37,766 nucleotides of DNA, taken from an uncultured Lachnospiraceae bacterium. Lineage in GTDB: Bacteria > Bacillota > Clostridia > Lachnospirales > Lachnospiraceae. Within the stretch, counting starts at the first letter, position 1; each line of letters opens with the position of its first letter. Under the pieces are notes generated by a model, which saw only the letters and a list, made by a program, of their open reading frames with translations, was not told the origin of the DNA and made no database searches. The stretch spans positions 1-37,766 of the forward strand of contig CANOFW010000029.1 in assembly GCA_947565425.1 (NCBI GenBank), given 5' to 3'. The translations under genes and the position numbers were made by a program. This document shows positions 3,220-23,160 of this stretch, in pieces.

Positions 3220-3918
3220 ATGATGATTAAAGCTATTGTGTTTGATATTGGACAGACACTGGTTGAGTATAAGATGCCTTTAAACTGGTCTAAGCTTTAT
3301 AGAGCTGCATTTGCAAGTGTCGCTGATGCGTGTGGATATACTTTTCTGGATAGTCAGTATCAATACGCAAGTCAGGTGTTGACTAAATATAATACGAGGA
3401 TAAATCCACGAGAGCATGAGATAACATCTGACCAGATTTTTGGTGAAATCATAAGAGGTATGGATATACCGGTGGAGGATATTGAGAAAGTTAAGTTCCA
3501 TTTTTACTCTTACTTCAAAAGAGATGCCCATGTATATCCGGAAGTTAGGGAAACGCTGAAAAGGCTGTTTGAAAAGAGAATATTATTAGGAACTTTATCT
3601 GATGTCGCATATGGTATGGATAACGTATATGCTATGGAGGATATCAGCGAAATTATAAAGTATATTGATTATCCGTTGACTTCCAATGATACCGGCTTCC
3701 GGAAACCCTGTGGGGAAGGATTAAAGATTTTATCCGATAAAATGCAGATTGGTGTTAAAGAAATGGCATTTGTCGGTGATGAAGAAAAAGATATCATGTG
3801 TGCGATCAATGCAGGCGTGTATTCAATCCTGATAAACAGAAGCGGCAATATTAAAAATTATGGACAAAATAAAGAGATAAGCTCATTAGGCGAATTATTA
3901 AATATATTTGACGGATAA
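3220..3918 (+). CDS. HAD superfamily hydrolase
   Basis: A 232-residue haloacid-dehalogenase-type hydrolase. Motif I is VFDIGQTL, in which the second Asp of DxDGT is Gly, a variation also found in some other HAD families. Motif II is the Ser/Thr of LGTLSDVAYG, motif III the Lys of GFRKPCGEG, and motif IV FVGDEEKDI. The cap is the helical C1 type between residues 15 and 100. HAD enzymes of this type usually remove phosphate from small metabolites; the substrate cannot be predicted. GAGGAG lies before two adjacent ATG codons (3220 and 3223). It appears intact, unlike its neighbours on both sides. Confidence 0.85.
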   Translation: MMIKAIVFDIGQTLVEYKMPLNWSKLYRAAFASVADACGYTFLDSQYQYASQVLTKYNTRINPREHEITSDQIFGEIIRGMDIPVEDIEKVKFHFYSYFKRDAHVYPEVRETLKRLFEKRILLGTLSDVAYGMDNVYAMEDISEIIKYIDYPLTSNDTGFRKPCGEGLKILSDKMQIGVKEMAFVGDEEKDIMCAINAGVYSILINRSGNIKNYGQNKEISSLGELLNIFDG

Positions 3919-3980
3919 AAATTTGAATGTAATTATGGCATTCTGTTAAAGGTACAAACAGGTATTTGAGGGCGCGGCTT

Positions 3981-4043
3981 ATGGGAACGGGAATTATTGT
4001 ATGCGGCTTAAATGGCAGTGGAAAGAGTACGTTTGGAAAATAT
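3981..4043 (+). pseudogene. N-terminal stub of a P-loop kinase or ATPase
   Basis: ATG at 3981 begins GTGIIVCGLNGSGKSTFGK, a clear Walker A motif at the very N-terminus as in small adenylate-kinase-like proteins. After about 21 residues the homology stops and the frame continues into sequence of different character, ending at a TAA at 4140-4142. The rest of the gene is absent and an IS256-type transposase begins about 100 bp later. Interruption by that element is the simplest explanation, although no clean terminal repeat was identified at the join. Confidence 0.65.
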
Positions 4044-4145
4044 CGGCTTCCTCGAGAGTACGAAAAAAACTCTGTAAAAACTGAATCGAAGTATTCTGAA
4101 AAGGTCTTCTATGATAAAATAAAAAATCATAGGAGGCCTTAAATT

Positions 4146-5062
4146 ATGGCAAACAGAAAAAAAGAAGTTTACAAACCAAAACCAATGACAGAGGGGAAAA
4201 GAAACGTCATCCAAGGTCTGCTCCGGGAGTATGACATTCATACGGTTTTGAGGTCAGCGAAGGCATGGTGTCAGACATCACCGACAAGCTGCTGCCGAAG
4301 ATCGAGGAATGGCAGAACCGCTCCTTGTCAGCGGTTTATCCGGTCGTGTTTATAGACGCCGTGCATTTCTCCGTCAGGGACGACGGAGTCATCCGGAAGC
4401 TGGCGGCTTATGTGGTTCTGGGGATCAATGAAGACGGGAAAAAAGAAGTCCTCACCATAACGATCGGGGAAAATGAAAGCAGCAAATACTGGCTGAGCGT
4501 GCTGAACAGCTTAAAAAACCGCGGCATAAAGGACATACGGATGCTCTGCTCTGACGGCCTGACGGGGAGCAAAGAGGCCATCACAGCTGCGTTCCCGTCA
4601 ACGAAGCAGCAGAGGCGCATCGTCCACATGGTGCGGAACACGCTGAAATATGTCGCAAACAAGGACCTGAAGGCATTTGCAAAAGACCTGAAGACAATCT
4701 ACACTGCGCCGGATGAAGAAAGCGCTTCTAAGCATCTGAAAACCGTGACGGAAAAATGGGAGGGACAGTACCCGAACGCGATGAACCGCTGGCACGACAA
4801 CTGGGATGCCGTATCCCCAATCTTCAAGTTTTCCAAAGACGTTAGGACGGCATTCTACACGACAAATGCAATAGAATCACTCAATTCCTCCTACTGCCGC
4901 CTAAACCGCCAGAGGAGCGTGTTTCCGAGTTCGCAGGCATTATAAAAAGCCCTGTATTTGGCAACATTTGAGAGCGTAAAAAAATGGACAGTCCCGATCC
5001 GGAACTGGGGAAAAATCCGGGGAGAGCTGGCACTCATGTACCCGGACAGGATGCCGGAGTAA
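4146..5062 (+). pseudogene. IS256 family transposase, internally deleted
   Basis: The coding sequence starts MANRKKEVYKPKPMTEGKRN, then near 4241 jumps frame into YGFEVSEGMVSDITDKLLPK, which in intact IS256 (mutator-type) transposases lies far downstream. Probably well over 100 residues are deleted. The catalytic core follows with its DDE residues: Asp in VFIDAVHFSVRDDG, Asp in CSDGLTGSKEA, Glu in TNAIESLNS. A TAA at 4943-4945 then interrupts SSQAL/KALYLATFESVKKW, and the expected ending (RNWGKIRGELALMYPDRMPE) continues in frame to 5062. The copy cannot transpose by itself. Terminal inverted repeats were not confidently located. Confidence 0.9.
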
Positions 5063-10422: not shown

Positions 10423-11068
10423 TTATCCCTCTGTCAGGATAACATATTGACCACATAGTTCACACATGTATAAGCCGCTTGCCACTGAAACAGTTCCACC
10501 TGGATGCCGCCTCGCCTGTCTTTCTGCATAGTCAAGATACATAGTAACAAACTGGTTTAAATCCTGCAATTCTTCACTCGTCAGATAATTCTTTGCGATA
10601 CTTACATCCGCTTTCACTATTTTACCCGTTGGGGCATTTTTCCAGGAAGTCAATCCCATATGCTCTTTTCTATGGTCTGCACGCTCTACAATCACTTCTG
10701 CCGCCGTATGTTGATGAATTGCATAATGCATATTCCTCATCAAATATCTGGCCATTTTCAAGACGCTTTTTATCCAGCACATATCCTTGGACAGTAAAAG
10801 TTTTCAACACTTTCGTTGCCCACTGCCTGATTTGGGTTGCACGAATCGAATTAATTCTATAACCCACAGAGATAATCGCATCAAGATTATAAAACTTCAT
10901 CATATATTTTTTGCCATCAGAAGCAGTTGCCGAGGATTTCTCGGTAACTGCTTCTGCACTCAGCTCTCCACTGGCAAAAATACTTTTCAAATGTAAGCTG
11001 ATATTATCTGTTGAGCAGTCGAAAAGCTTAGCCATGCTCTTTATAGAAAAACGTTTGAAATACAACAT
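10423..11068 (-). pseudogene. RhuM family protein, deleted and frameshifted
   Basis: The first frame (from 11068) has SMAKLFDCSTDNISLHLKSI, FYNLDAIISVGYRINSIRAT, QIRQWATKVLK and GYVLDKKRLENGQIFDEEY, all typical of the RhuM (virulence protein RhuM-like) family. At about 10745 the homology jumps frame and resumes much later in the family as HYAIHQHTAAEVIVERADH, then SIAKNYLTSEELQDLNQFVT and MYLDYAERQARRH. Some 50-60 residues are missing at the junction. After ARRH the family sequence stops and an unrelated zinc-ribbon-like tail follows (GLYMCELCGQYVILTEG). The N-terminus also lacks the usual first 20-30 residues. Non-functional. RhuM genes are frequent on genomic islands. Confidence 0.8.
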
Positions 11069-11152: not shown

Positions 11153-12472
11153 TCACCCCGGCAAACTATCCCTCAAACACAACACGCCCCAGCCAATCTG
11201 TGGATTTGGATACTCCGGCAATATCGGCAGATGCCTTGCGCCTTTGAGTAAATACGCTTTCACTTTCTCCCCATATAGATAAGGATCATTCCCATTGACA
11301 ATCCCCCATTGCATCAAAAGTGCTGCGCTGCCCGTAACAAACGGCGTCGCCATGGACGTCCCGCTGCGCACTGCATAACCGCCACCTGGCGACGCTGAAT
11401 TGATGTCTACACCCGGCGCCGCCAGGTCCGGCTTTACCTGGTTTGTCTGCCTCGTATAACCACGTCCGGAAAATTCTGCAAGTCGGTCGTATCTAGCGTC
11501 ATAGGCAGCCACGGAAACTACCTTTTCCGCTGTAGAAGGAATTGTCAGGGTCGTTTCCTCCGTCGGATACAAAAATCCGGTTCCCTGGTTAAGTACTGTC
11601 TGTCCCGGAAGCCATAAATCATAATTTCCCCGCACAATTCGCTCCGGCATCAAGATTACGCGCCAAACCCCAGAATCAATGTAAGAGGAGGCTGGCAGAA
11701 AATCTATATATATTTCTTGATAAAGATTATAGGGGCTCGGTTCCCCATAATAGAGCAGGATTTCTGTCTGCCCTAATACAAACCGCTGCGGTCCTTGAAT
11801 CTGCTGTATTGGTCCAATACGTCTGCCAGAAGGATGTTCCAACAATATATCATAATCATCTACATAGGATTTCCATATTTGCAGGTTCAACGCCGTCTCA
11901 TAAGCGCCCACCCCCAACTCAATATCTCTCTCCTGCCCTTGCGTAAGAATTCCCGAAGTATGCCCCCTCGCTGCCCCTTCATTCCCGGTCCCCACAGAAA
12001 TCACGGTCTTCCAATAATTTGACATATCATTGATATAACTCTCAAGCAACGCTGTCCCGCTGTGTGAACCGTAATTGTTGCCAAAACTCATATTGACTGC
12101 CATAGGCATTTTTAGCTGTAAAGCTTTTTCGACAACGTAATCCAGGGCGCGCATAAGCTGAGTTGTCCGCGGAAATCCATCTGGTTCCGCCGTTCCCAAC
12201 TTCACGATTAGCAAAGGGCTCTCATATGCAATTCCGCGATTAACACCAGCGGAAGCTCTGCCGTTTCCCGCCGCAATACCGGCTACATGTGTGCCATGGC
12301 CGGAGGTATCACGGCTGGGCACAAGACGGAAACGTTCCTGCTCATTTGGCGCATTTATAGCTTCATTAATCTGTTCTGCTGTAAATTCTCTGTCCAACGT
12401 CTCATCATACAATGCCAGAATCCTTGTACTGCCATCTGCATTGCGAAAATCGGGGTGACTGTAATCAATCCC
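11153..12472 (-). CDS. S8 (subtilisin-like) peptidase, C-terminal part of a split gene
   Basis: This part encodes the bulk of an S8 serine peptidase: GIDYSHPDFRNADG just after the junction, catalytic His in DTSGHGTHVAGIAAGN, the Asn region SVGTGNEGAARG, a large insertion domain, and the catalytic Ser in VRSGTSMATPFVTGSAALLM. The end (NPQIGWGVLCLRDSLPG) is typical of the large clostridial Csp-like S8 peptidases. The N-terminal prodomain and catalytic Asp are 10.2 kb away at 22705-23097. Upstream of the junction the frame meets a TGA (12476-12478), so only internal starts such as ATG 12412 are available. Joined precisely, the two parts give 569 residues with His at about 189 and Ser at about 503. 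Confidence 0.9.
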   Translation of the reverse strand, partial: GIDYSHPDFRNADGSTRILALYDETLDREFTAEQINEAINAPNEQERFRLVPSRDTSGHGTHVAGIAAGNGRASAGVNRGIAYESPLLIVKLGTAEPDGFPRTTQLMRALDYVVEKALQLKMPMAVNMSFGNNYGSHSGTALLESYINDMSNYWKTVISVGTGNEGAARGHTSGILTQGQERDIELGVGAYETALNLQIWKSYVDDYDILLEHPSGRRIGPIQQIQGPQRFVLGQTEILLYYGEPSPYNLYQEIYIDFLPASSYIDSGVWRVILMPERIVRGNYDLWLPGQTVLNQGTGFLYPTEETTLTIPSTAEKVVSVAAYDARYDRLAEFSGRGYTRQTNQVKPDLAAPGVDINSASPGGGYAVRSGTSMATPFVTGSAALLMQWGIVNGNDPYLYGEKVKAYLLKGARHLPILPEYPNPQIGWGVLCLRDSLPG

Positions 12473-12491
12473 CTCTCATGTTAAACAGTTG
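12470..12491. other. Left attachment junction of the element
   Basis: Host S8 sequence ends at the CCCC run (12470-12473). Reading inward, the element begins TCTCA then TGTTA-N5-TTG (12479-12491). The same TGTTA-N5-TTG arm occurs in inverted orientation at the right end. Confidence 0.7.
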
Positions 12492-12513
12492 CTATAAGCT
12501 CCTGTCTGCCATG

Positions 12514-14058
12514 TTAAGTCCTCTTAGAAGCAGATTGCAGCGCTTTCCATTTAATTTCAATCTCTTTCTCATTATGAACTACGATTGTATCAATATACCG
12601 TTCCATCAGCTCCATTGCCAATAAAGCATTTTTTGCAAATGAAAATCCCCCTGATTGCAACTTATCAATCTGTTCCTCTATCTGAATCACTTGCTCCTGC
12701 AAAGCCCCGATAATCTCCTGCTTTTCCTCCATCTTTGCACGGAGGGAAGTAAACTCTGGTTGCTGCCCAAAAGAATACAACTGATAACGCTCATAATGCT
12801 CCTGCTTTAACTTGCCATACTCCCGCTTTGCCTGCTTCATTTTTCGTAACACTTGTTCACGTTTCCCATTCAAATCATTCTTATAGCAACGGGAAACCTC
12901 TGCTGCAAGGTTTTGTTCTTTCAAGTACTTTTCCAGCCGCAACCATACCGCCTGCTCCAGAAATTTGGCGTTTACTTTGCTGACGCATCCCTCCAATCCC
13001 GTCACATAACGATTATGACATGTAAAATAAGCATTGCATCCCTCTTTTATCTGTAAATTATGTTTACAGCATCCACACACTGCCCTGCCAATAAATGGAT
13101 GCCTGTTTCCTCTCGTTCCCTTTTGAATGCTTTTCCCCCTGTTTTTCTGAACTTTCTCAAAATCTTCCCTCGCTATAATGGGGGCATGGTGGTTCTTAAT
13201 CACCTTCCATTCTGTCCTTGCTTTTAAGATATTACAACCTCCTACCTGCTCTTTCTCTGTCTTACCATACTCCACATCCCCGACATATACCGGATTGCGC
13301 AAAATACTGCACACGGTACTGCTGCTCCAGTAGAACCTGTCACCCTTTGGTTTCCGTGAAGTCTTTCCCTTTCTGATCTTAAACTCCACCGGCGTAGGAA
13401 CCTTTCTTTGGTTTAGCTTCTTTGCCGTCTGAGAAGATGTCTCCCCCTGTAGGGCAAGGGTAAAAATCTCTCGCACCACCGCCGCCTCATCCTCACAGAT
13501 GATAAGCATATGCCGGTCACTGGGGGCTTTTTCATAGCCAAACGGGGCATTCGCACTGACATACTGACCGCTATCCTTCCTTGCCCGCAATGAAGTCTTC
13601 ACTTTCTTTGACAAATCCTTACTGTACAAATCATAGAGAAGGTTTTTGAAATTGACATCCAAATCAAAGCTCCTTCCTTGAACACTGGCGCTGTCGAAAT
13701 AGTCGTTAATGGAAATAAAACGAATGTTTAAAAAAGGAAATATCTGCTCCAGATACGAACCCACTTGCAGGTAATCCCTGCCAAACCGAGAAAAATCTTT
13801 TACCACCACGCAGTCAATCTTCTCGTTTCTGGCATCCTCTAAAAGTTTTTGCACGCCTGGACGGTTGAAATTAGTCCCCGAAAAACCGTCATCTTCATAC
13901 TCTATGATCTGGCAGGCGCCAAAATGGGCGGCGATATACTTTCGTATCAAAATACGCTGCATAGAAATACTATTGCTCTCTTCTTGCGCCTTTTCCTCTG
14001 ACTTGGAGAGACGCATATAAGCAGCAATGCGAATAGGATGTGTTACCTCTGTTCCCAT
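12514..14058 (-). CDS. Large serine recombinase A
   Basis: A 514-residue large serine recombinase. The resolvase-type catalytic domain holds the nucleophile Ser in AAYMRLSKSEE (about residue 18) and CVVVKDFSRFGRDYLQVGSY. A recombinase domain follows (SANAPFGYEKAPSDRHMLII onward), then a zinc ribbon (CGCCKHNLQIKEGC, then CHNRYVTGLEGC) and a coiled-coil region near residues 400-475. Such enzymes integrate and excise elements at short att sites. It is the last gene of the recombinase operon, 25 bp after recombinase B, and ends only 41 bp from the element boundary, the usual place for an integrase. It appears intact. Confidence 0.95.
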   Translation of the reverse strand: MGTEVTHPIRIAAYMRLSKSEEKAQEESNSISMQRILIRKYIAAHFGACQIIEYEDDGFSGTNFNRPGVQKLLEDARNEKIDCVVVKDFSRFGRDYLQVGSYLEQIFPFLNIRFISINDYFDSASVQGRSFDLDVNFKNLLYDLYSKDLSKKVKTSLRARKDSGQYVSANAPFGYEKAPSDRHMLIICEDEAAVVREIFTLALQGETSSQTAKKLNQRKVPTPVEFKIRKGKTSRKPKGDRFYWSSSTVCSILRNPVYVGDVEYGKTEKEQVGGCNILKARTEWKVIKNHHAPIIAREDFEKVQKNRGKSIQKGTRGNRHPFIGRAVCGCCKHNLQIKEGCNAYFTCHNRYVTGLEGCVSKVNAKFLEQAVWLRLEKYLKEQNLAAEVSRCYKNDLNGKREQVLRKMKQAKREYGKLKQEHYERYQLYSFGQQPEFTSLRAKMEEKQEIIGALQEQVIQIEEQIDKLQSGGFSFAKNALLAMELMERYIDTIVVHNEKEIEIKWKALQSASKRT

Positions 14059-14083
14059 AACAGATTGCTTTATTTCCCCATCT

Positions 14084-15694
14084 CTATCTCCCCCTTCCTA
14101 ATATGTAGCTTCTATCGAATAACTCATTCATGTGGAATGCGAAGATAATTTTCACCCGATTGTCCGTATACACATCAATCCGGTGAATCAAGGTATGTAT
14201 GGCATCTTTTGTCAATTTCGTCTTCTCCGTACATCTTATTAGATTTCTCAGAAACTCTCCTTGTTCCTTTATCGTGTGCTCCATGCTATCTAATCTGTGC
14301 TGCAATTCCTCTCTCCTCTCTGCCATTTGAGCGAGAGACTTCTCATTTTCTTTCTTTAAATGCTGAAATTCTTCCAGAGAAAGGCTGCCCAAACGGTACT
14401 TCCGATACAGCTCGCTTCCCCTCTTTTTTCCACTCTCCTGCTGTCTGCCACAGAGAACCATTTTCCGTCTGATTTTCTGCTTTTGTTCCTCCGCCTGGCT
14501 TTCATATTCCTTTACCAGCCTACCTGGACACAAATCTACCAGTGCAAATTGCTGATGCAATGCCGTTTTTACCAATTTATCCAGCACGCCCAGGCTTATG
14601 CTCTTTGCTGGACATCGCAAATCATCCAGCCTGCGGGAAGACGGACAATGATAACTATAGTGACGAACCATATCACCCGAGCTTAATCGTTTTGCATTTC
14701 CCACTCTTGCCATCTGTTTTCCGCAGTTCCCACAAAACAGCACGCCTGCGTAAATATCTTCCTCCAGAGGTGTTTTTGAGAAATAGGCATTTCTGTTAGC
14801 GAAAGTTGCCGCAGACTTTTCAAACATAGCCGCCACCCGAGAAAACACTTCTTCACCGACAAGAGGTTCATGAACTCCCTGCACCAGACCGCCCATATAA
14901 ACAGGATTTGTCAAAATCGACTTTACCGTCCCGACGCTCCACTGTTCCACAACCTCTCCCTGCTGGCGGTACACATGTCCTGTCTTTCTGTAAACGCCCG
15001 GTCGGTGAATTTCCCTTTGATACAACTCCCTGGCAATTTGACGCATATTTTTACCGGCTAAATACATTGCATACATCTCTTTTACTATCTTTGCTGTCTG
15101 CGGACAGCTGAAAAGACGTTTCTTCCCATCTACCCATTCCGCCCGATACCCATAGGGCGGTATCCCACCCGTATAACTCCCCTGTTCCTGGCTGCTGCGC
15201 CTGCTGGACTTTACCTTTTTCGCAATATCCCTCGCATACATCTCATTGATAAGATTCTTCAGGTTAAGCGCTATTTCATCCGTGCTGGATTTCGGCGCAA
15301 ACGTATCAATCCCATCTGTAAGAGCTATCAAACGTACACCCATAAAAGGGAAAATTTTCTGGATATAATTTCCCGCCTCAATATGGTTCCTGCCAAAACG
15401 GGATAGATCCTTGACGATCACACAGTCAATGCGTTTCTTCCTCACATCCTGCATCATACGCTCAAACCCTTCCCTCTTAAAGTTCGTTCCTGTTCTGCCC
15501 AAATCCGTATAACAGTCATAAAGCTCCATCTCCGGGTGTTCTTTCATATATTGCTTTGCAATGGCAATCTGCGTGTCAATAGACTCATTCTTTCTCTCTG
15601 TTCCTTCCACGGAAAGCCTTGCATAAATCCCCACACTAAAATGTCTGGAAAGGGGAATCTGTTTTGTTTTTTTCTTCTTAGAAGTACGCGCCAT
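14084..15694 (-). CDS. Large serine recombinase B
   Basis: A 536-residue large serine recombinase with a basic N-terminal extension (MARTSKKKKTKQIPLSRHFS). Then come the catalytic Ser in GIYARLSVEGTE, DCVIVKDLSRFGRNHIEAGN, the recombinase domain (GGIPPYGYRAEW), a zinc ribbon (CGNCGKQMARVG, CPSSRRLDDLRC) and a long coiled coil about residues 400-490. Its ATG lies 1 base after the stop of recombinase C and uses a GGGAGG site inside that gene, so the two are translationally linked. It is clearly divergent from A and C, so this is not a recent duplication. Intact by length and motifs. Confidence 0.95.
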   Translation of the reverse strand: MARTSKKKKTKQIPLSRHFSVGIYARLSVEGTERKNESIDTQIAIAKQYMKEHPEMELYDCYTDLGRTGTNFKREGFERMMQDVRKKRIDCVIVKDLSRFGRNHIEAGNYIQKIFPFMGVRLIALTDGIDTFAPKSSTDEIALNLKNLINEMYARDIAKKVKSSRRSSQEQGSYTGGIPPYGYRAEWVDGKKRLFSCPQTAKIVKEMYAMYLAGKNMRQIARELYQREIHRPGVYRKTGHVYRQQGEVVEQWSVGTVKSILTNPVYMGGLVQGVHEPLVGEEVFSRVAAMFEKSAATFANRNAYFSKTPLEEDIYAGVLFCGNCGKQMARVGNAKRLSSGDMVRHYSYHCPSSRRLDDLRCPAKSISLGVLDKLVKTALHQQFALVDLCPGRLVKEYESQAEEQKQKIRRKMVLCGRQQESGKKRGSELYRKYRLGSLSLEEFQHLKKENEKSLAQMAERREELQHRLDSMEHTIKEQGEFLRNLIRCTEKTKLTKDAIHTLIHRIDVYTDNRVKIIFAFHMNELFDRSYILGRGR

Positions 15695-15695
15695 A

Positions 15696-17366
15696 TTACG
15701 ATACCTCCCTTCCTCCCGGCGCCATTACCAGTATGTTTTCTTTACTTTCAAAAACATCTGCCCGCATCCGTATTTGCGCAAACATATCTTTTGCCCGAAA
15801 TTCCAGAAATACCCTCTTATCCTCATAAACAAGAATGCGGCTGATAAAGGTCACCAGAATATCCCGATTCAGCTCCGAAATTTCCAATGTGGACTTCAGC
15901 TTCTTTAGATTTTCCCCTGCTGCCACACTTGCCTTACATAAGTTGTACATTGCCTCCTTCTGCCGCCTGATCGCATCCGCCGCTGCCTGATACTGCATTT
16001 CGTATATCTGCCAAAAATCTCGAAAATCCTCTTTCGTGATGATTCCCCGTCTCAAATCCTCATACATTCCGGTATGCAAAGAGACATACTTTTCCTGCTC
16101 CTGGTAAAGTTTCTGGATTTCTCTATCGAACACTGCCACCTCGTCAAACGGTATCTCTATTTTTTCTATCTGCCTCAGTACATAACTCTTATCCAAAAAC
16201 AGCGCCAACTGCTGCTGTAAACCTGTCAATACCAGATGTTTCAATTCCTCTTCTGGAATGCTGTGCCTTGTGCAGCCAAGTCCCTTATTTCTGGCGGGAC
16301 AGATAAAATACACCTTATCCACTCCTTTATAACGGTTTACCCGCCGAATCATCGGCTCCCCGCAGTCCCCGCAATATAAAAATCCTGTAAACATATGACA
16401 CCCGGCTTTTCCAGCAGAAGCTCTTGTGTCTACCTCTAATAATTTCTGGACAATCTGAAAATCTTCTGTCGACACTATCGCCTCATGAGTATCCCGTACC
16501 CGCACCCATTCCTCCCTGGGCTTTTCCACCGAGCATTTGACTTTGTGACTAACCTTTTCGTTTTTTCCCTGCACCATCATCCCCGTATATAGCTCATTGG
16601 TAAGAATGCGTTTTACCGCCACTGCCGACCACTGCGCCTTTACATGTGTGAAAAACCCCGTCGAAAACTTTTCACCCTGCGACTTTTTGTATTCCAATGG
16701 AGAGAGAATACCCATTCCTTCCAGCTTTTTTGCTATAGCAAGATTACTGAGCCCGGCAATTTTCCATGCAAATATTTTTTTCACAATCCCGGCTGCATAC
16801 GCGTCGATTAGCAAACGATTGCTATTGTGCGGGTCCTTGCGATAACCATACACTGCAAAGGCGCCGATAAAATCGCCTCTTTCCCTCTTCACTTGCTGAT
16901 GGCTCCTCACTTTTTGGGAAATATCGCTGCAATACGCATCATTAACAAAATTCTTGACTGGCAGCACCAGCGTTTTTTCATTAAAATCGGCAGTCAGTGA
17001 ATCAAAATTATCATTCAGCGCAATAAACCGCACAGAAAAAGCCGGGAAGGTTTTTTGAATCAACCGCCCGGCTTCTATATAATCTCGTCCAAACCTGGAT
17101 AAGTCCTTGACGATCACACAATCAATGTGTCCCGCCTCTATATCTTCCATCATCCGCTTGAAAGCAGGTCTGTCAAAATTTGCCCCCGACCATCCGTCAT
17201 CTACATAGATGTCATAAATTTCCATATCGTCCTGCCCCCGAAGATAGGAACGGATCATATCTCTCTGGGAACGAATACTGTTACTCTCTGCACTGCCGCT
17301 GTCAGAAGCGTCATCCCGGCTCAGGCGAAGATACACAGCAACGTTATAAAAATCTTTCGCTTTCAT
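15696..17366 (-). CDS. Large serine recombinase C
   Basis: A 556-residue large serine recombinase. The catalytic Ser lies in VAVYLRLSRDDASDSG, followed by DGWSGANFDRPAFKRMMEDI and DCVIVKDLSRFGRDYIEAGR. Recombinase-domain blocks include GAFAVYGYRKDPHNSNRLLI and AVAVKRILTNELYTGMMVQG. The zinc ribbon is CGDCGEPMIRR with CPARNKGLGC, and a coiled coil occupies about residues 420-500. It is the first recombinase in the operon, 18 bp after the small DUF6870-like gene. Intact. Whether A, B and C act together or serve different sites cannot be read from sequence. Confidence 0.95.
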   Translation of the reverse strand: MKAKDFYNVAVYLRLSRDDASDSGSAESNSIRSQRDMIRSYLRGQDDMEIYDIYVDDGWSGANFDRPAFKRMMEDIEAGHIDCVIVKDLSRFGRDYIEAGRLIQKTFPAFSVRFIALNDNFDSLTADFNEKTLVLPVKNFVNDAYCSDISQKVRSHQQVKRERGDFIGAFAVYGYRKDPHNSNRLLIDAYAAGIVKKIFAWKIAGLSNLAIAKKLEGMGILSPLEYKKSQGEKFSTGFFTHVKAQWSAVAVKRILTNELYTGMMVQGKNEKVSHKVKCSVEKPREEWVRVRDTHEAIVSTEDFQIVQKLLEVDTRASAGKAGCHMFTGFLYCGDCGEPMIRRVNRYKGVDKVYFICPARNKGLGCTRHSIPEEELKHLVLTGLQQQLALFLDKSYVLRQIEKIEIPFDEVAVFDREIQKLYQEQEKYVSLHTGMYEDLRRGIITKEDFRDFWQIYEMQYQAAADAIRRQKEAMYNLCKASVAAGENLKKLKSTLEISELNRDILVTFISRILVYEDKRVFLEFRAKDMFAQIRMRADVFESKENILVMAPGGREVS

Positions 17367-17384
17367 CTTGCACTCCTCCTGATC

Positions 17385-17654
17385 TTATATTATGACAGTC
17401 TGCTTTCTGGCAAGCAGCACCATACGGTCATCCAGTGAATCTTCTGCCCCTTCCAAATAGCCAATCTGCAAAATATATTCTCCGACATTCTGTGCAAAGG
17501 GATTCTTTACCTGCTCCAAAAAGGACAGTACCCGCTGGTTGAGATTTTTGGATGAATCTATCTCAACCTCTTCTGCGTCCGACAACATTTCTCGCCTAAG
17601 TTCCATAATTGGGATTTCCTTTTGTTCCCATAATTTTTCAAGTGTCACCTGCAC
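17385..17654 (-). CDS. Small conserved protein upstream of the recombinases (DUF6870-like)
   Basis: An 89-residue acidic protein. The segment EEVEIDSSKNLNQRVLSFLE, then QVKNPFAQNVGEYILQIGYL and AEDSLDDRMVLLAR, resembles a family of small proteins found beside serine recombinases in clostridial elements. I recall it as DUF6870 (pattern IDxSLPxxERxxxFxxQIKNPYxxxxGxxxVxxxFxxxxxTLEDR). The family name is from memory. The start is GTG with a strong GAGGGGG site a few bases upstream. It is the first gene of the four-gene recombinase operon. A role as a directionality or regulatory factor is possible but only guessed from position. Confidence 0.65.
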   Translation of the reverse strand: MQVTLEKLWEQKEIPIMELRREMLSDAEEVEIDSSKNLNQRVLSFLEQVKNPFAQNVGEYILQIGYLEGAEDSLDDRMVLLARKQTVII

Positions 17655-17723
17655 GTCACCCCCTCTTACTTATTTTATTGAGGAGACTGCCTGTCTTATG
17701 ACTTCTCATGAACACTGCGCAGC

Positions 17724-17744
17724 AAGAACGCCGATGGCGTTCTT
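17724..17744. repeat. Perfect 9-bp hairpin ahead of the recombinase operon
   Basis: AAGAACGCC-GAT-GGCGTTCTT, a perfect palindrome with a 3-base loop, about 70 bp upstream of the first gene of the recombinase operon. There is no T-run after it in the direction of that operon. It could be an operator or a structured leader element. Confidence 0.5.
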
Positions 17745-17783
17745 GAATTTCCTGAAAAAACAAAATATTTCCTGCTAAGATAA

Positions 17784-17842
17784 AAATGAGGATGTCGCAC
17801 GAATCACAGCTCGTAATTTATGTTCGTGCGACGTCCCCATTT
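17784..17842 (-). terminator. Terminator of the SGNH esterase gene
   Basis: An imperfect 20-bp inverted repeat (AAATGAGGATGTCGCACGAA with TTCGTGCGACGTCCCCATTT) around a 19-base loop. On the minus strand the stem is followed by TTTTT. It lies about 60 bp after the SGNH stop and separates that transcript from the recombinase operon. Confidence 0.8.
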
Positions 17843-17900
17843 TTTATTCGTTTACAGGTAACTGACCTTTTCAGATTACTAAATTTGCATTATATTTCTA

Positions 17901-20561
17901 TTACTTAATCTTAACGCTAGATGCCTGCCCTTTTCTTTTCAACACTCTTTCATAGGCTTTCTTCTTACTCTTGGGCACTTTGATAGATGCCTTCTTGTTT
18001 ATGCCTTTGAGCGCTTTTGAGCCTACTGTTTTCAGCTTTGTACCCTTGACGGTTATCTTTTTCAGCTTCTTGCAGTTATAGAATGCCTTAGAACCAATCT
18101 TAGTGACATTCTTTCCAATCGTCGCGCTTGTAGCTTTGCTGCATCCTGAAAATGCACTGTTGCCAATGGAAGTGACAAGGAACTTTTTGCCTCCGATTGT
18201 GACGGTGTCAGCCACCTTGATGCTCTTGCCCTTCTTGCTCTTGACACCGCTCAAGACAACTGTGCCCTTCCCATTTGTCTTTGCATTCGTTATTTTGTAT
18301 TTGTAATTTCCAACCGTATAGCTTGCATTCTTTTTAACGGTAATCTTGAACGTTTTGGAAACTTCTCCTGTATAATCTCCTATTCCTTTGATCGTTACAG
18401 ACGCCATTCCAATCTTTGTGTTATTCTTGTAGCTCACCGTATAGTCTTTGTTGACCTTTAAACTGCTGCCCGCATACGTTATGGTAAGGGACGGATACTT
18501 TGCCTTGCCCGTGTAGTACTGATCTGCAATCTTGTTCACGACAGCCTTCGTAATACTGATTTTTACCGCAGGCTTCTCCGGCTCCTCCGGCGTAAGGCTC
18601 TTATATTTTGCCTCCGCTTCCGTCAGTACCGCATAATTATCCACCAGAGCCTTCTGAGCGTCCGTCAGTTTGTCGTACGCTTCCCTTGCAGCATCAATTT
18701 TCTCCTTGCTGGCATTGTCATAAACTACTTCTCCAATGGCATCAATTAACGATTTCACATCCTCTACCGCCTGGTCTACCGGCACATAATCCGTCTGATA
18801 GCCAATCGCGTACAATGTAAACTTCTTCGCTTCATCTCCCGCTGCCATTTTTAATTCGATTTTATGCATGGCAGACTCTTTTTCCTGTAAGGCAATGCAT
18901 ACTTTTCCATTATTCCAACCTGACGAATTGTGACAATGCAAAGTAGATTTCTTCACACCATCCACATACAAATCGGCGGAACCGTAGGCATTCTCACTTG
19001 TTTCCTTATATACGAGCATAAATGTCTGGCAATTGACTTCAATCGTCAACGGATCATTCGTGCCATTTCCAGCATACATCCAGTTATTCGGAAACCATTT
19101 TTCTCCCTTAATGCCATTATACAAATACTGGTATGTCGGAACATTGTTGTCCTTGCTGCTAAATCCTCCTGCATTGATAGCGTTAATTGCCGGATCAGAA
19201 TCGGCGGTTGTCGTCGAATCAATCATCTTAATTCCTTCAAAGGAAGAGGACGTCACAGCTTGGATGGAATCCACATTTGTCGCATTATCAGCCTCTGCTT
19301 CTTCTTTATCAACACGATCCATTAATTCCAAAATGCAATCCGCCATAAGTTTGTAGCCATTTGCATTGGGATGAAGCGTATCGTTATAAAACCAGTCATA
19401 AAAACCGGGTTCCTGATAAACGTCCTTGATCGCGTCTGCTGTGCTAATCATCGGCAGATCATACGCTACTCCATATTTGCGGTAATTCATCTCTTCTACG
19501 CGGTTTAAATTGTTAAATACGGAAAATACCAAAACAACCGCTGAGCCCGATTTCAACGCCTGGCGAATCAAACCTTCGTATGCGCCACCCTTCGTCTCAC
19601 AACCGGCATCATTTACAGCAAACTCAATAAACAAAACGTCTGGATGACTGCTGCCCTCCGGCAGACGGTCTACCACATCACGATTGTAGCGGATAATACC
19701 GATATCCGACGGTGTACCGCTCATGCCTGCATTGATAAAATGAACGTTCTTGCCCTCATTTACACCATATTTCTTAGCAAAAGCCTTCGCAGAAACTTCT
19801 GCATAACATGCGGAATTCGGATTGTAGCCGCCGCCCTCCGTGATGGAACCTCCAATATAAGCCAACGATACATCTTTTCCATCGCGTGCCTTTTGAATAG
19901 CCGTCTTCAGGCGTGCATTGTTACCAGTTGAAAAAACGCTTCCCTTAACCATTTTGCTATAAAGTTCTTCATCCGGCTTAAATTCATTGAGTGTTGCCGG
20001 AATACCAGAAATCGACAAATCATCTACAAAGAAATCTGCTGTGTCAGAGGTAGAACACTGAAGATACAAAGCAATTTCATTCGCAGTTTCCGGAACTTTA
20101 AAGGAACCTCTCAGCTCCGTCCACTCACCACTCGCGCATGCTCTACCATATCCAACAATCGAATCATACTTCGTTTCTCCGCTGGCGTCCTTATACTGTA
20201 CCCCCAGGTCGCATGTCTGTTCCGTACCCGTATCCTGTTTTACATAGACTTTGAAATCATATGTGTTCCCAGATGTTACAAGCCGTGCAAGCGACAACTG
20301 AATGCCATGCCATGTCGCCGTACGTCCGCTGACCGACAAGCTGTTGTTGCCTACGTCATGATGTACCGAAGTGGAGACTTCCAGCGTTACCGATCCACGT
20401 CCCATAATCCCCTGGTATTCCCCATCTTCAAAACCATTTCTGTAAATTTCTTTTTTCTCATCCTCTGCCCGTACATCTGCCGGAAGCATCGTCAATGTCA
20501 TTGCTGCCGCCAGAATTACAGCGCATACACGTTTCCATCCTCTCTTCATCACGTTCTTCAC
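17901..20561 (-). CDS. Secreted multidomain SGNH-hydrolase (probable carbohydrate esterase)
   Basis: An 886-residue exported protein. A signal peptide (VCAVILAAAMTLTMLPADVRA, residues 12-32) is followed by a carbohydrate-binding beta-sandwich at about 40-190 (CBM4/9-like by pattern). The SGNH catalytic domain lies at about 205-415: block I YIGGSITEGGG (Ser 239), block II GMSGTPSD, block III EFAVND, block V NDTLHPNANGY (Asp/His). Then come a second beta-rich domain (about 430-595), a helical segment (about 600-665), an Ig-like domain and C-terminal BspA-type leucine-rich repeats (IGNSAFSGCSKATSATIGKN, about 780-860). Such enzymes typically remove acetyl groups from plant polysaccharides. The GTG start has AAAGGAG 6 bases upstream. 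No LPXTG anchor is seen. It is intact cargo of the integrative element. Confidence 0.9.
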   Translation of the reverse strand: MKNVMKRGWKRVCAVILAAAMTLTMLPADVRAEDEKKEIYRNGFEDGEYQGIMGRGSVTLEVSTSVHHDVGNNSLSVSGRTATWHGIQLSLARLVTSGNTYDFKVYVKQDTGTEQTCDLGVQYKDASGETKYDSIVGYGRACASGEWTELRGSFKVPETANEIALYLQCSTSDTADFFVDDLSISGIPATLNEFKPDEELYSKMVKGSVFSTGNNARLKTAIQKARDGKDVSLAYIGGSITEGGGYNPNSACYAEVSAKAFAKKYGVNEGKNVHFINAGMSGTPSDIGIIRYNRDVVDRLPEGSSHPDVLFIEFAVNDAGCETKGGAYEGLIRQALKSGSAVVLVFSVFNNLNRVEEMNYRKYGVAYDLPMISTADAIKDVYQEPGFYDWFYNDTLHPNANGYKLMADCILELMDRVDKEEAEADNATNVDSIQAVTSSSFEGIKMIDSTTTADSDPAINAINAGGFSSKDNNVPTYQYLYNGIKGEKWFPNNWMYAGNGTNDPLTIEVNCQTFMLVYKETSENAYGSADLYVDGVKKSTLHCHNSSGWNNGKVCIALQEKESAMHKIELKMAAGDEAKKFTLYAIGYQTDYVPVDQAVEDVKSLIDAIGEVVYDNASKEKIDAAREAYDKLTDAQKALVDNYAVLTEAEAKYKSLTPEEPEKPAVKISITKAVVNKIADQYYTGKAKYPSLTITYAGSSLKVNKDYTVSYKNNTKIGMASVTIKGIGDYTGEVSKTFKITVKKNASYTVGNYKYKITNAKTNGKGTVVLSGVKSKKGKSIKVADTVTIGGKKFLVTSIGNSAFSGCSKATSATIGKNVTKIGSKAFYNCKKLKKITVKGTKLKTVGSKALKGINKKASIKVPKSKKKAYERVLKRKGQASSVKIK

Positions 20562-20785
20562 ATTTTACTCCTTTCATTAACAAAGAAGGATTGCAGAAAC
20601 TTCATGGTCAAAAGTCCTCAATCCTTGCTAAATTTATAGATAATTTATTATAGTATGTTATATTATCTTTTTCACCCCCAAAAACTATAGATTTTTCACA
20701 AAAACTTGTTACAAATATTTAGTTTTTTACACATTATGCCAAAAACCAGCCATAACTTTTTTGAACGCAGGTTATAAGAGCGTAT

Positions 20786-21685
20786 TTATCGTGCATTTTT
20801 ATAAATTTCTACTGCATCATCTACCGTTAATTTTTTTGCAGAACCAGTATCGTTTCCACTGGCAATCATACACCGGTTCGCCATATCAAGAATCTGTTCA
20901 TCCGATGGCATAATACCTAATTCACGCATATTTGTAGGCATACCAATAGTACGATAAAACTGTTCCATAGCACTTATACCAGCCTCTGCAATCTCCTTAT
21001 CTGTACCCTCTAACATGATACCCATAACATTTCTTGCAAAACGGACAAAGCGGGGCATACAGTTCTCATAAACATGTCTTGCCCAACTTGGCCAGATTGC
21101 GGCAAGGCCAGCTCCATGTGTTACATCAAACATTCCTCCCATTTCATGTTCAAGCTTATGTGTCATAAAATCACCACCGTCATTTCCTCACCCAGTTAAA
21201 TCATTATGCGCCAGGCTTCCAGCCCACATAATTTCGGAACGGGCGTCATAATTATCCGGATTCTCATGTAAAATAATTGCGTTTTCCATAACCGTACGCA
21301 ACAAAGCCTCGGCAATCACGTCTGTAATTTCTAAATTACCGCCATTTGTAAAATAACGCTCCATTGTATGCATCATAATATCAACACATCCTGACTCCGT
21401 CTGATAATCAGGAAGTGATTTGGTATATTCGGGATTCATAATAGCAAACTTTGGCCGAGCAAAATCATCATCATAAGCACGTTTTTCACCCGTTTTCTCG
21501 TTCGTAATAACACATCCTTTGGAAGTTTCGCAGCCAGCGGCAGCAATCATTAGTATACTCGCTACGGGAAGACATTTTTTTGCAGTCCTTATATGCAAAA
21601 ACAAGTCCCATACATCATGTTCCGGTTCCGCCAATCCATAAGCTATGGCTTTTGCGGTATCAATAACACTCCCGCACAATTATGA
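20786..21685 (-). pseudogene. Iron-containing alcohol dehydrogenase, truncated, with in-frame TGA
   Basis: The sequence reads CGSVIDTAKAIAYGL at its beginning, which is the GGGSVID NAD-binding loop normally near residue 95, so about 90 N-terminal residues are missing. Homology continues through ESGCVDIMMHTMERYFTNGG to LAHNDLTG, a TGA at 21188-21190, then GNDGGDFMTHKLEHEMGGMF with the iron-ligand His residues, and on to the normal C-terminus. Family members usually have Cys at the TGA position (LTGCGNDGGD). The truncated end abuts the promoter region of the divergent araC-type gene. No hairpin typical of a selenocysteine insertion element follows the TGA, and the missing N-terminus argues for decay. 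Confidence 0.85.
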
Positions 21686-21734
21686 TATAATAATTCTAAT
21701 TATTACGATATGACATTGACAGGGGGATACGTAT

Positions 21735-22610
21735 ATGAAATCATTTTTTATTGATGAAAATCAAGTGGAACAAATAGAAGGTATGACCACAGAATACCCC
21801 TATTGTCTACATCAGCGTGATTTGACGGACTTTATTATTCCCTGGCATTGGCATGAAGAGTTAGAACTTGGCTACATTCAAGAAGGCACCAGCCAAATCA
21901 CCACAGTTGGAGCAGAATATATCATCCATCAAGGAGATGGGTTCTTTATCAACAGTAATGTAATGGATATGAAAAAAAATGCAACTCCTGGAAAAAGGGT
22001 ACTGGAAATCAACCATATATTCCACCCTATTTTTTTGAGTGGACATTTCAAAAGCCGTTTTGAGAAAAAATATCTGACCCCTATCATCAATAATCACCAG
22101 ATTGAAGTTTATATTATACGAAGAGGGCAATTAATATCCGATAAAATTCTTACAAATCTTTGTCGTCTAAAGGAATTACAATCACATGAAAATATGGAAT
22201 TTCAAACTAGAAATATTCTATCTGAAACATGGCTATTACTTTTAGAAGATTTGCGGATAAATTTTAGAATGAATAAGACTTTGAAATTTGAACAACCAGA
22301 CAGAATGCGGAATATGCTTTCTTTTATTCATAATCATTATAAAGACAAAATTACCATAGCGCAAATTGCCGCTGCCACAGGCATAAGTGAGCGGGAAGCT
22401 ATGCGCAGTTTTCGCAAAAACCTGAATCAAACTCCTATAGAATATCTAATCTCCTACAGACTTAATGAGGCAAAAAAAATGTTGTTGAACAGCGAGCTGC
22501 CTATCACTGAAATTTGCTATCAATGCGGATTCTCTGACAGTTCCTATTTTGGTAAAGCATTCCGCAAAGCTTATGGAATCACTCCAAGGGAATTTCGTTC
22601 TCATCATTAA
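21735..22610 (+). CDS. AraC family transcriptional regulator
   Basis: A 291-residue regulator with an N-terminal cupin sensor (IIPWHWHEELELGYIQEGTS, then EYIIHQGDGFFINSN) and a C-terminal double helix-turn-helix (ITIAQIAAATGISEREAMRS; then the signature LPITEICYQCGFSDSSYFGK, AFRKAYGITPREFRSHH). Such proteins usually sense a sugar or small molecule and activate neighbouring catabolic genes. AGGGGG lies about 8 bases before the ATG. It is divergent from the broken iron dehydrogenase, its most likely former target; the esterase gene further left is another candidate. It lies inside the integrative element, about 95 bp from the right boundary, and appears intact. Confidence 0.95.
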   Translation: MKSFFIDENQVEQIEGMTTEYPYCLHQRDLTDFIIPWHWHEELELGYIQEGTSQITTVGAEYIIHQGDGFFINSNVMDMKKNATPGKRVLEINHIFHPIFLSGHFKSRFEKKYLTPIINNHQIEVYIIRRGQLISDKILTNLCRLKELQSHENMEFQTRNILSETWLLLLEDLRINFRMNKTLKFEQPDRMRNMLSFIHNHYKDKITIAQIAAATGISEREAMRSFRKNLNQTPIEYLISYRLNEAKKMLLNSELPITEICYQCGFSDSSYFGKAFRKAYGITPREFRSHH

Positions 22611-22677
22611 TTTTCCTCCTAATTTCGCATTCCTCAGCATTTTATTATCTTCCTGCGGTTTGCACAAGAAGATTTTT

Positions 22678-23097
22678 CTAATATGACAATATAATAACAC
22701 GCTCCCCGGAATCAAGAACCGCCACAATCACGTCCTGTCCCGTCAAGTTATACCTTGCACTCTGAAGCGGCGTGATACAGGACGCCTGCTTGCCCTCCCG
22801 CACAGCAAAATACAGTCGTTTCGGCTTCTCCACATATTCCACCTCCACCGCATCTGCCACCTCGTCCATAGCCGACTCCGGTACGTTTAAAATGGCATAC
22901 TCATTGCTCAGTTCATCCACACGGATTTGCGGATTCTCCCTTGAGAGCCGCATAATATCACCGGAATATTTCACAATCAGCTCCCAGCGTTTCTCTTGCG
23001 AATCATAACCCACACCGAGATTTAAGGACTTCTCCCGCTCACGCTCTGTAGCGTCCAAGGCAAGATTTAAAAGATTCTCAAATTTTTCACTTTCCAT
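22678..23097 (-). CDS. S8 peptidase, N-terminal prodomain part of the split gene
   Basis: The frame encodes a prodomain-like region (EILVKYSGDIMRL-type strands and ELSNEYAILNVPESAMDEVA) followed by the start of the catalytic domain, ARYNLTGQDVIVAVLDSG with catalytic Asp at residue 129. At 22704 host sequence gives way to the element and the frame ends nine codons later (ERVIILSY, TAG). As it stands it encodes about 139 residues, a free prodomain without His or Ser. The start ATG at 23097 has GGAAGGAAAA upstream and is preferred to 23124. The matching remainder of the gene is at 11153-12472. Confidence 0.85.
   Translation of the reverse strand: MESEKFENLLNLALDATEREREKSLNLGVGYDSQEKRWELIVKYSGDIMRLSRENPQIRVDELSNEYAILNVPESAMDEVADAVEVEYVEKPKRLYFAVREGKQASCITPLQSARYNLTGQDVIVAVLDSGERVIILSY
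22687..22707. other. Right attachment junction of the element
   Basis: Host S8 sequence ends at the G run (plus-strand CCCC, 22704-22707). Reading inward on the minus strand, the element begins AGCG then TGTTA-N5-TTG (22699 to 22687), mirroring the left end. Confidence 0.7.
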
Positions 23098-23160
23098 GCT
23101 ATTTTCCTTCCCATGATACAACAATCATAACATAAATTAAAATGTCTCCATTAATCTTCA

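Follow-up and report, generated by a model that had tools for sequence, protein, structure and literature searches.

The window, a stretch of 37,766 nucleotides from a mouse-gut relative of Clostridium, contains a gene for a CspB-type germination protease (csp) that is interrupted at the codon for its catalytic Asp by a 10.2 kb element, which is very probably (we put this at close to 0.9) a site-specific integrative cassette inserted into the G run of that codon by a module made up of a DUF6870 gene and three large serine recombinase (LSR) genes. It is better regarded as belonging to a family of LSR-triplet cassettes that is widespread, moves horizontally and has csp genes as its attachment genes.

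The interrupted csp gene

The N-terminal half of csp is found in a minus-strand open reading frame (22678-23124, ATG at 23097) whose csp-derived part (22705..23097) encodes the prodomain and the catalytic Asp (DSG) and matches CspB_prodomain PF18425 (profile search, E 1.7e-34); its last residues, ...VAVLDSG, are followed by the element-encoded ERVIILSY and a stop. The C-terminal half (minus strand, 11153..12472, in an open frame of 11153-12475) includes the catalytic His and Ser in the motifs HGTHV and GTSMATP and matches Peptidase_S8 (PF00082) as well as the CspBA model NF040809 (E 5e-112; 375 bits, which is under the curated cut-off of 1250 of this model, whose 1099 positions represent the fused protein). 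The CspB prodomain and the S8 catalytic domain with Asp, His and Ser predicted for a Csp germination protease are thus spread over the two halves, and the putative function of the gene in the window is assigned by homology. An earlier note had suggested a single Csp-like S8 peptidase gene in two parts, and this is borne out by both profiles and by an uninterrupted csp gene of a related species (genome G024, contig L010), a single open frame of 603 residues with 91% identity to each half. The two alignments to it adjoin (query 1-140 to 3326-3745, 2-440 to 3743-5059), and as both halves align best to this one protein they do not come from different paralogues, nor are relatives devoid of an intact S8 gene.

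With the break marked by a slash, the left junction in the window reads GATTCCGGGG/agcgtg and the right one catgagaGGGG/ATTGAT (longer form AGAGGGGATTGAT), the uninterrupted counterpart in L010 being GATTCCGGG/ATTGAT (longer form GATTCCGGGATTGAT). Comparison of the junctions places attL, consisting of GATTCCGGGG and the arm AGCGTGTTATTATATTGTCA, at 22684..22713, and attR, consisting of the arm TTAACATGAGA, GGGG and ATTGATTAC, at 12461..12486 (both minus strand; attR also by an arm pattern match). The G run alone is common to both junctions, which fits the expectation for a serine recombinase and, together with the three LSRs inside, upholds the idea of a site-specific serine-recombinase element as the agent of the split. 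When the frame across the junction was assessed against intact relatives, the junction phases agreed with theirs, and the element is in principle excisable, as had been proposed.

The neighbourhood of csp is mostly unconserved among the 28 loci compared: the gene upstream of csp in the window is kept at high identity solely in L009 (75.5%), and L009 and L016 are the only loci in which the GDSL gene is the next one after csp. The expectation of an intact homologue at this position therefore holds for the gene and hardly for the place. Just downstream of csp the window also contains what looks by eye like RhuM-like debris (10423-11068), 313 bases of which are 95-97% identical to stretches in G006 and G008 that bear D-type cassettes (site D is described below).

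Content of the element

From the N half of csp to its C half, the element carries an AraC-family regulator (21735..22610, plus strand; PF12833, E 6e-26), a broken iron-containing alcohol dehydrogenase in two fragments with the N terminus missing (20786..21679; PF25137, PF00465), a large GDSL hydrolase that also has CBM and LRR_5 repeats (17901..20561; PF13472, PF02018, PF13306), the small DUF6870 protein (17385..17654; PF21757, E 1.8e-18) and the tandem recombinases LSR1 (15696..17366), LSR2 (14084..15694) and LSR3 (12514..14058), each matching PF00239, PF07508 and PF13408; all except the AraC gene are on the minus strand. Three adjacent LSRs in one orientation, a short shared core and a disrupted target are the features of an LSR-triplet integrative element. 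In the profile search, which covered the eight larger ORFs of the element, no conjugation or phage genes were found, and the LSRs do not qualify as CcrA, CcrB or CcrC of the SCC elements (94-102 bits for CcrB against a cut-off of 900, lower for the other two). The GDSL gene, which is inside the element in the window (17901-20561), stands downstream of csp in L009 (11534-14191) and L016 (11727-14366).

An LSR match was found on 27 of the 30 DUF6870 loci examined out of 55 matches, and the position of DUF6870 makes it a candidate regulator, directionality factor or accessory factor. No PDB structure matched its structural model (pLDDT 84) at an E value under 6, and the literature search, limited to CC-licensed PMC papers, returned no match for it. 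Among the recombinases LSR1 may be the main enzyme: across the 13 site-A-type rows of the tree (the G268 element included) it is 527-579 residues long, and of the three LSRs it has the lowest dN in the distant pairs compared, but in G008 it is split.

An alignment of 14 elements revealed a conserved motif, CATARGACA-N-AATAWAAT, upstream of the DUF6870 and LSR genes (17672..17700, minus strand), with one match in the window's own genome. A role as a promoter used in sporulation, or as a SpoIIID site, was considered for it and rejected, given this single match and its presence before LSR triplets at site B, at site D and at some further targets; it thus offers no evidence that the element is controlled by sporulation. 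The csp upstream regions are too divergent in alignment for a sporulation promoter to be called. A viral origin and a plasmid or phage origin were likewise rejected, P0005 having no match in viral_contigs and none at 60% identity or above in plasmid and phage records; the attR pattern occurred in five stretches of viral_contigs, none of which had a csp match.

Insertions at the Asp codon within the genus

A csp orthologue is present in 27 of the 29 genomes of the genus, and in seven of these 27 (G000, G023, G009, G012, G015, G025 and G028) it is cut at the Asp codon, hereafter site A, the match starting at the junction residue within a frame that is short. Recurrence of the junction at this residue in seven genomes of the genus and in other genera is not a matter of chance. 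The N half lies far from the C half in six of the seven carriers, and none was found for G028.

The junction arms are conserved among the carriers of the genus (the attL arm of the window recurs unchanged in G023 and almost so in G009, G012 and G015, and G025 has a different arm), while the size and cargo of the inserts vary: about 5 kb with DUF6870, LSRs and no other cargo in G015, about 7.8 kb with an MCP-like protein in G023, about 10.8 kb with AraC, beta-galactosidase and an MFS_2 sugar transporter in G012, and about 18.8 kb with an NRPS of 2995 residues in G009. The insert of G025 (about 4.1 kb; L025 5912-10007) has the csp attachment junctions and encodes FIST-GGDEF and GGDEF-EAL proteins; no LSR was found inside it and an LSR triplet is present on another contig, L107, so this insert may be moved in trans.

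Other genera and horizontal movement

Among 396 family genomes (Lachnospiraceae) searched, with three candidates scored per genome, LSR3 relatives were found in 14 at E 1e-110. A csp-type C half directly follows LSR3 in the window genome, G193, G262, G144, G296, G197 and G363; in G316 the csp N half, DUF6870 and LSRs lie together at one end, 11 kb separating LSR3 from the C half that comes after it; G415 is cut at site B (see below) and G268 in another S8 gene; and in four of the 14 (G123, G348, G375 and G399) no csp was found beside the LSR3 relative. The attR-arm pattern was detected in 11 of 397 family genomes. A csp-type gene follows immediately in 10 of these, G095 being the exception; the reversed pattern, used as a control, was detected in one genome among the matches listed. 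The insertions at the Asp codon outside the genus have conserved attachment arms and different cargo. The right junction is also carried by the second csp paralogue of G027. Shortened recombinase genes occur in several members of the family: LSR3 in G015, G268 and G316, and LSR2 in G262.

By their profile matches, all below the cut-offs, the C halves fall into two groups: G197, G193, G316 and G363 resemble the CspB part of CspBA, and G144, G296, G262, G027 and G468 resemble CspC and the CspA part of CspBA. Both protease-type and pseudoprotease-type csp genes are thus targeted. In G268 a related element lies at the Asp motif of an S8 gene that is not a csp (130 bits for mycosin against 79 bits for CspBA), and the site may therefore be set by the DNA motif rather than by the role of the gene.

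Transfer is seen in G028 and G197, which belong to different genera and have elements 99.84% identical over 10,558 bases, the identity ending about 25 bases inside csp. As their csp genes are dissimilar (81% and 53% identity, respectively, to that of the window), the family evidently moves horizontally. In the pair G009 and G023, LSR dS is 0.55-0.74 versus a csp dS of 1.35. For G000 and G023 the LSR dS of 0.79-1.14 is near that of csp (0.80, 0.95), a divergence compatible with either a shared insertion or separate ones.

Further sites in csp

The 3' ends of csp could be read in 26 of the 27 genus genomes and in G005. Counting each genome once, 13 of the 27 csp genes of the genus are cut at one at least of four sites, A to D. 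Site B (QWG/IV) is occupied in G008, where LSR1 is split between two places, and its right junction is also present in G029, for which the csp tail alone was found, and in G415, for which the N part ends at residue 391 on another contig. Site C (NDPYLY/GEK) is cut in G011, G033, G007, G012, G005 and G009, and site D (PN..G/WGVLC) in G006, G021 and G015, both leaving the catalytic triad intact and removing the tail alone. Right junctions with adjacent LSR triplets were identified in G009 and G033 for site C and in G006, G012, G015 and G021 for site D, a duplicated csp tail being found instead in G020 (D) and G022 (C). In the LSR1 tree the rows of sites A and B are intermingled and those of C and D form separate supported clades.

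Contigs L111 and L108 each have two D-type csp tails, suggesting stacked cassettes. Another contig of the window's own genome (C56; L211 7100-7320) carries a C-clade LSR triplet followed by a csp-like tail, GERLKANLIRGAQPLSG...GWGSLCVARSLPGG, so that the genome may hold another csp-type gene interrupted at site C, one whose front part was not found.

Selection on interrupted csp genes

Interrupted csp genes have low dN/dS values that overlap those of the other csp genes, and relaxed selection was for this reason rejected as a general test. In this comparison "intact" means uninterrupted at site A only, so that G008, G011, G033, G007, G006 and G021 are in the intact set though cut at B, C or D. 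The C half of G028 has the same low dN/dS despite its absent N half, and a low value alone therefore cannot prove that a gene is in use.

The strongest evidence on whether csp is still used is offered by G012 and G005, both of which have the site A right junction and differ little in LSR3 (dS 0.04) and csp (dS 0.037). The csp part has accumulated 2 nonsynonymous and 11 synonymous changes (p=1.1e-5 versus neutrality), and LSR3 14 and 13; five of the 13 changed csp codons are at 390-395, beside site C, and without these 1 nonsynonymous and 7 synonymous changes are left. At the sequence level this is indicative of strong purifying selection on the interrupted csp part in this pair, though independent insertion or strain variation within each species may also explain the contrast. 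The N half of G005 was not found, the best match (48%, in a frame of 722 residues) probably being a paralogue.

Insertion, possible excision and alternative explanations

From the comparison of junctions, an attP deduced to have inverted arms (TTGACA...GGG...TGTCA) very probably recombined into the G run of the Asp-Ser-Gly codons through the action of the DUF6870 and LSR module, and the reverse reaction would restore the csp frame. Related cassettes with other cargo dock in csp, at four codon sites in the genus, and pass between genera, as the comparisons show. Excision may then take place in some cells, with csp restored during sporulation much as excision of gin restores gerE, a proposal made by analogy, for and against which we consider the odds to be even; both reversibility and timing in sporulation are inferred. 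The purifying selection in G012 and G005 and the precedent of gin make regulated excision plausible, and with it the developmental or phase switch suggested in the note. Spo0A scores over the cut-off in 26 of the 29 genus genomes, G000 among them, and of the seven site A carriers it is missing just in G023, which is 82% complete.

An obligate switch of the skin or gin type, in which excision would be restricted to the mother cell, csp would be silent before it and the host would depend on the element, is unlikely. It would accord with the three serine recombinases of gin in gerE (as outlined in PMC5595907), with the sigma-E-dependent, mother-cell-expressed csp operon described for C. difficile in PMC3789822, with the selection seen in G012 and G005 and with junction phases that restore the frame at the two-sided loci read; however, the elements have a patchy distribution and varying cargo, one of them was recently transferred between genera, G028 lacks an N half, an AraC gene in the opposite orientation stands between the csp N half and the LSR genes in the window, and neither the motif nor the alignment of csp upstream regions gave a sporulation promoter. 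The missing N half of G028, the shortened LSRs and the insertion in a non-Csp S8 gene all argue against a universal switch of this kind.

At the other extreme, the element could be a plain mobile cassette that inactivates csp, its carriers germinating poorly or by means of another Csp and the open halves reflecting recent insertion. We regard this as possible though doubtful: the G028/G197 transfer, the N half missing from G028, the lone csp tail of G029 and the presence of at least two S8 matches at E 1e-40 in most family genomes with a match among the 150 places listed would be accounted for, but csp is used repeatedly, at four sites, and G012 and G005 share an insertion (LSR3 dS 0.04) and yet retain a 2:11 ratio of nonsynonymous to synonymous changes in csp (p=1.1e-5). 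That the split gene is an assembly chimera or a pair of unrelated paralogue fragments is a thought invited by the many MAGs among the genomes, and may be set aside as extremely improbable, given the 91% identity of both halves to one gene and the recurrence of the junction across separate assemblies, that of G009 consisting of four contigs.

More tentatively, and with slightly less than even confidence, we suggest that csp is a dedicated docking gene for a DUF6870-LSR superfamily in gut Lachnospiraceae, whose silent cassettes would be excised in the mother cell, rebuilding the protease. As csp would be needed only in the mother cell, cassettes, even those stacked at several codons, could ride silently in vegetative cells and spores.

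Relation to known elements and significance

The closest counterpart is gin, a non-phage element in gerE of Bacillus cereus that is excised during sporulation and, in the account of PMC5595907, resembles the csp element in having three serine recombinase genes, splitting a sporulation-stage gene, sharing a short core at its junctions and being variable in gene content (between strains in the case of gin). According to the same source gin is 28.6 kb long, has a girAB operon and a separate girC, uses GirX as an additional factor and has had its excision demonstrated; the csp element, in contrast, has three adjacent LSRs behind DUF6870, targets csp at several sites in many genera and is known from sequence alone. 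The elements skin in sigK, SPbeta in spsM and yin in yabG also bear recombinases and reside in sporulation genes but are prophages or prophage-like (PMC10747680, PMC5595907), and such intervening elements are described in the latter as having a single recombinase gene for the rearrangement. Serine-integrase triplets are reported in PMC4701971 for streptococcal ICEs and dICEs, which are conjugative or derived from conjugative elements and occupy mutT, traG and hsdM, whereas no conjugation gene was found among the eight ORFs scanned here and the target is csp. Staphylococcal cassette chromosome (SCC) elements with Ccr recombinases resemble the csp element in their LSR cassettes, changing cargo and composites at one gene (in part after PMC5595907), but differ in their site and in recombinases whose NCBIfam cut-offs are far above the scores obtained here.

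With a sporulation or germination gene (by homology) split and a recombinase inside, the element can provisionally be counted as gene-intervening. LSR-triplet elements and intervening elements of sporulation genes are known kinds; the new point is csp as a docking gene with multiple sites, and no earlier report of csp as an insertion target was found among the matches listed in the CC-licensed PMC literature (titles and beginnings of abstracts).

Sporulation and germination govern the transmission of gut commensals, and the locus connects the development of spores with the horizontal spread of metabolic genes as cargo. Carrier bacteria may be able to form working spores only once excision has restored csp, and if the gene is often interrupted in one genus and sporadically elsewhere in the family, annotation would score genomes as having no germination protease although the gene may be rebuildable. 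Should the docking reading be true, germination competence in many commensals would hinge on programmed recombination, and the silent cargo would comprise metabolic, signalling and biosynthetic genes. The locus further offers LSR clades whose arms are related but whose sites within one gene differ, a setting in which changes of specificity in serine integrases can be studied. A further arrangement was observed in another clostridium (L085 9149-17050), in which a second csp is split a few codons past the Asp by an insert with a single distant LSR and genes that, named by eye, resemble those for metal uptake.
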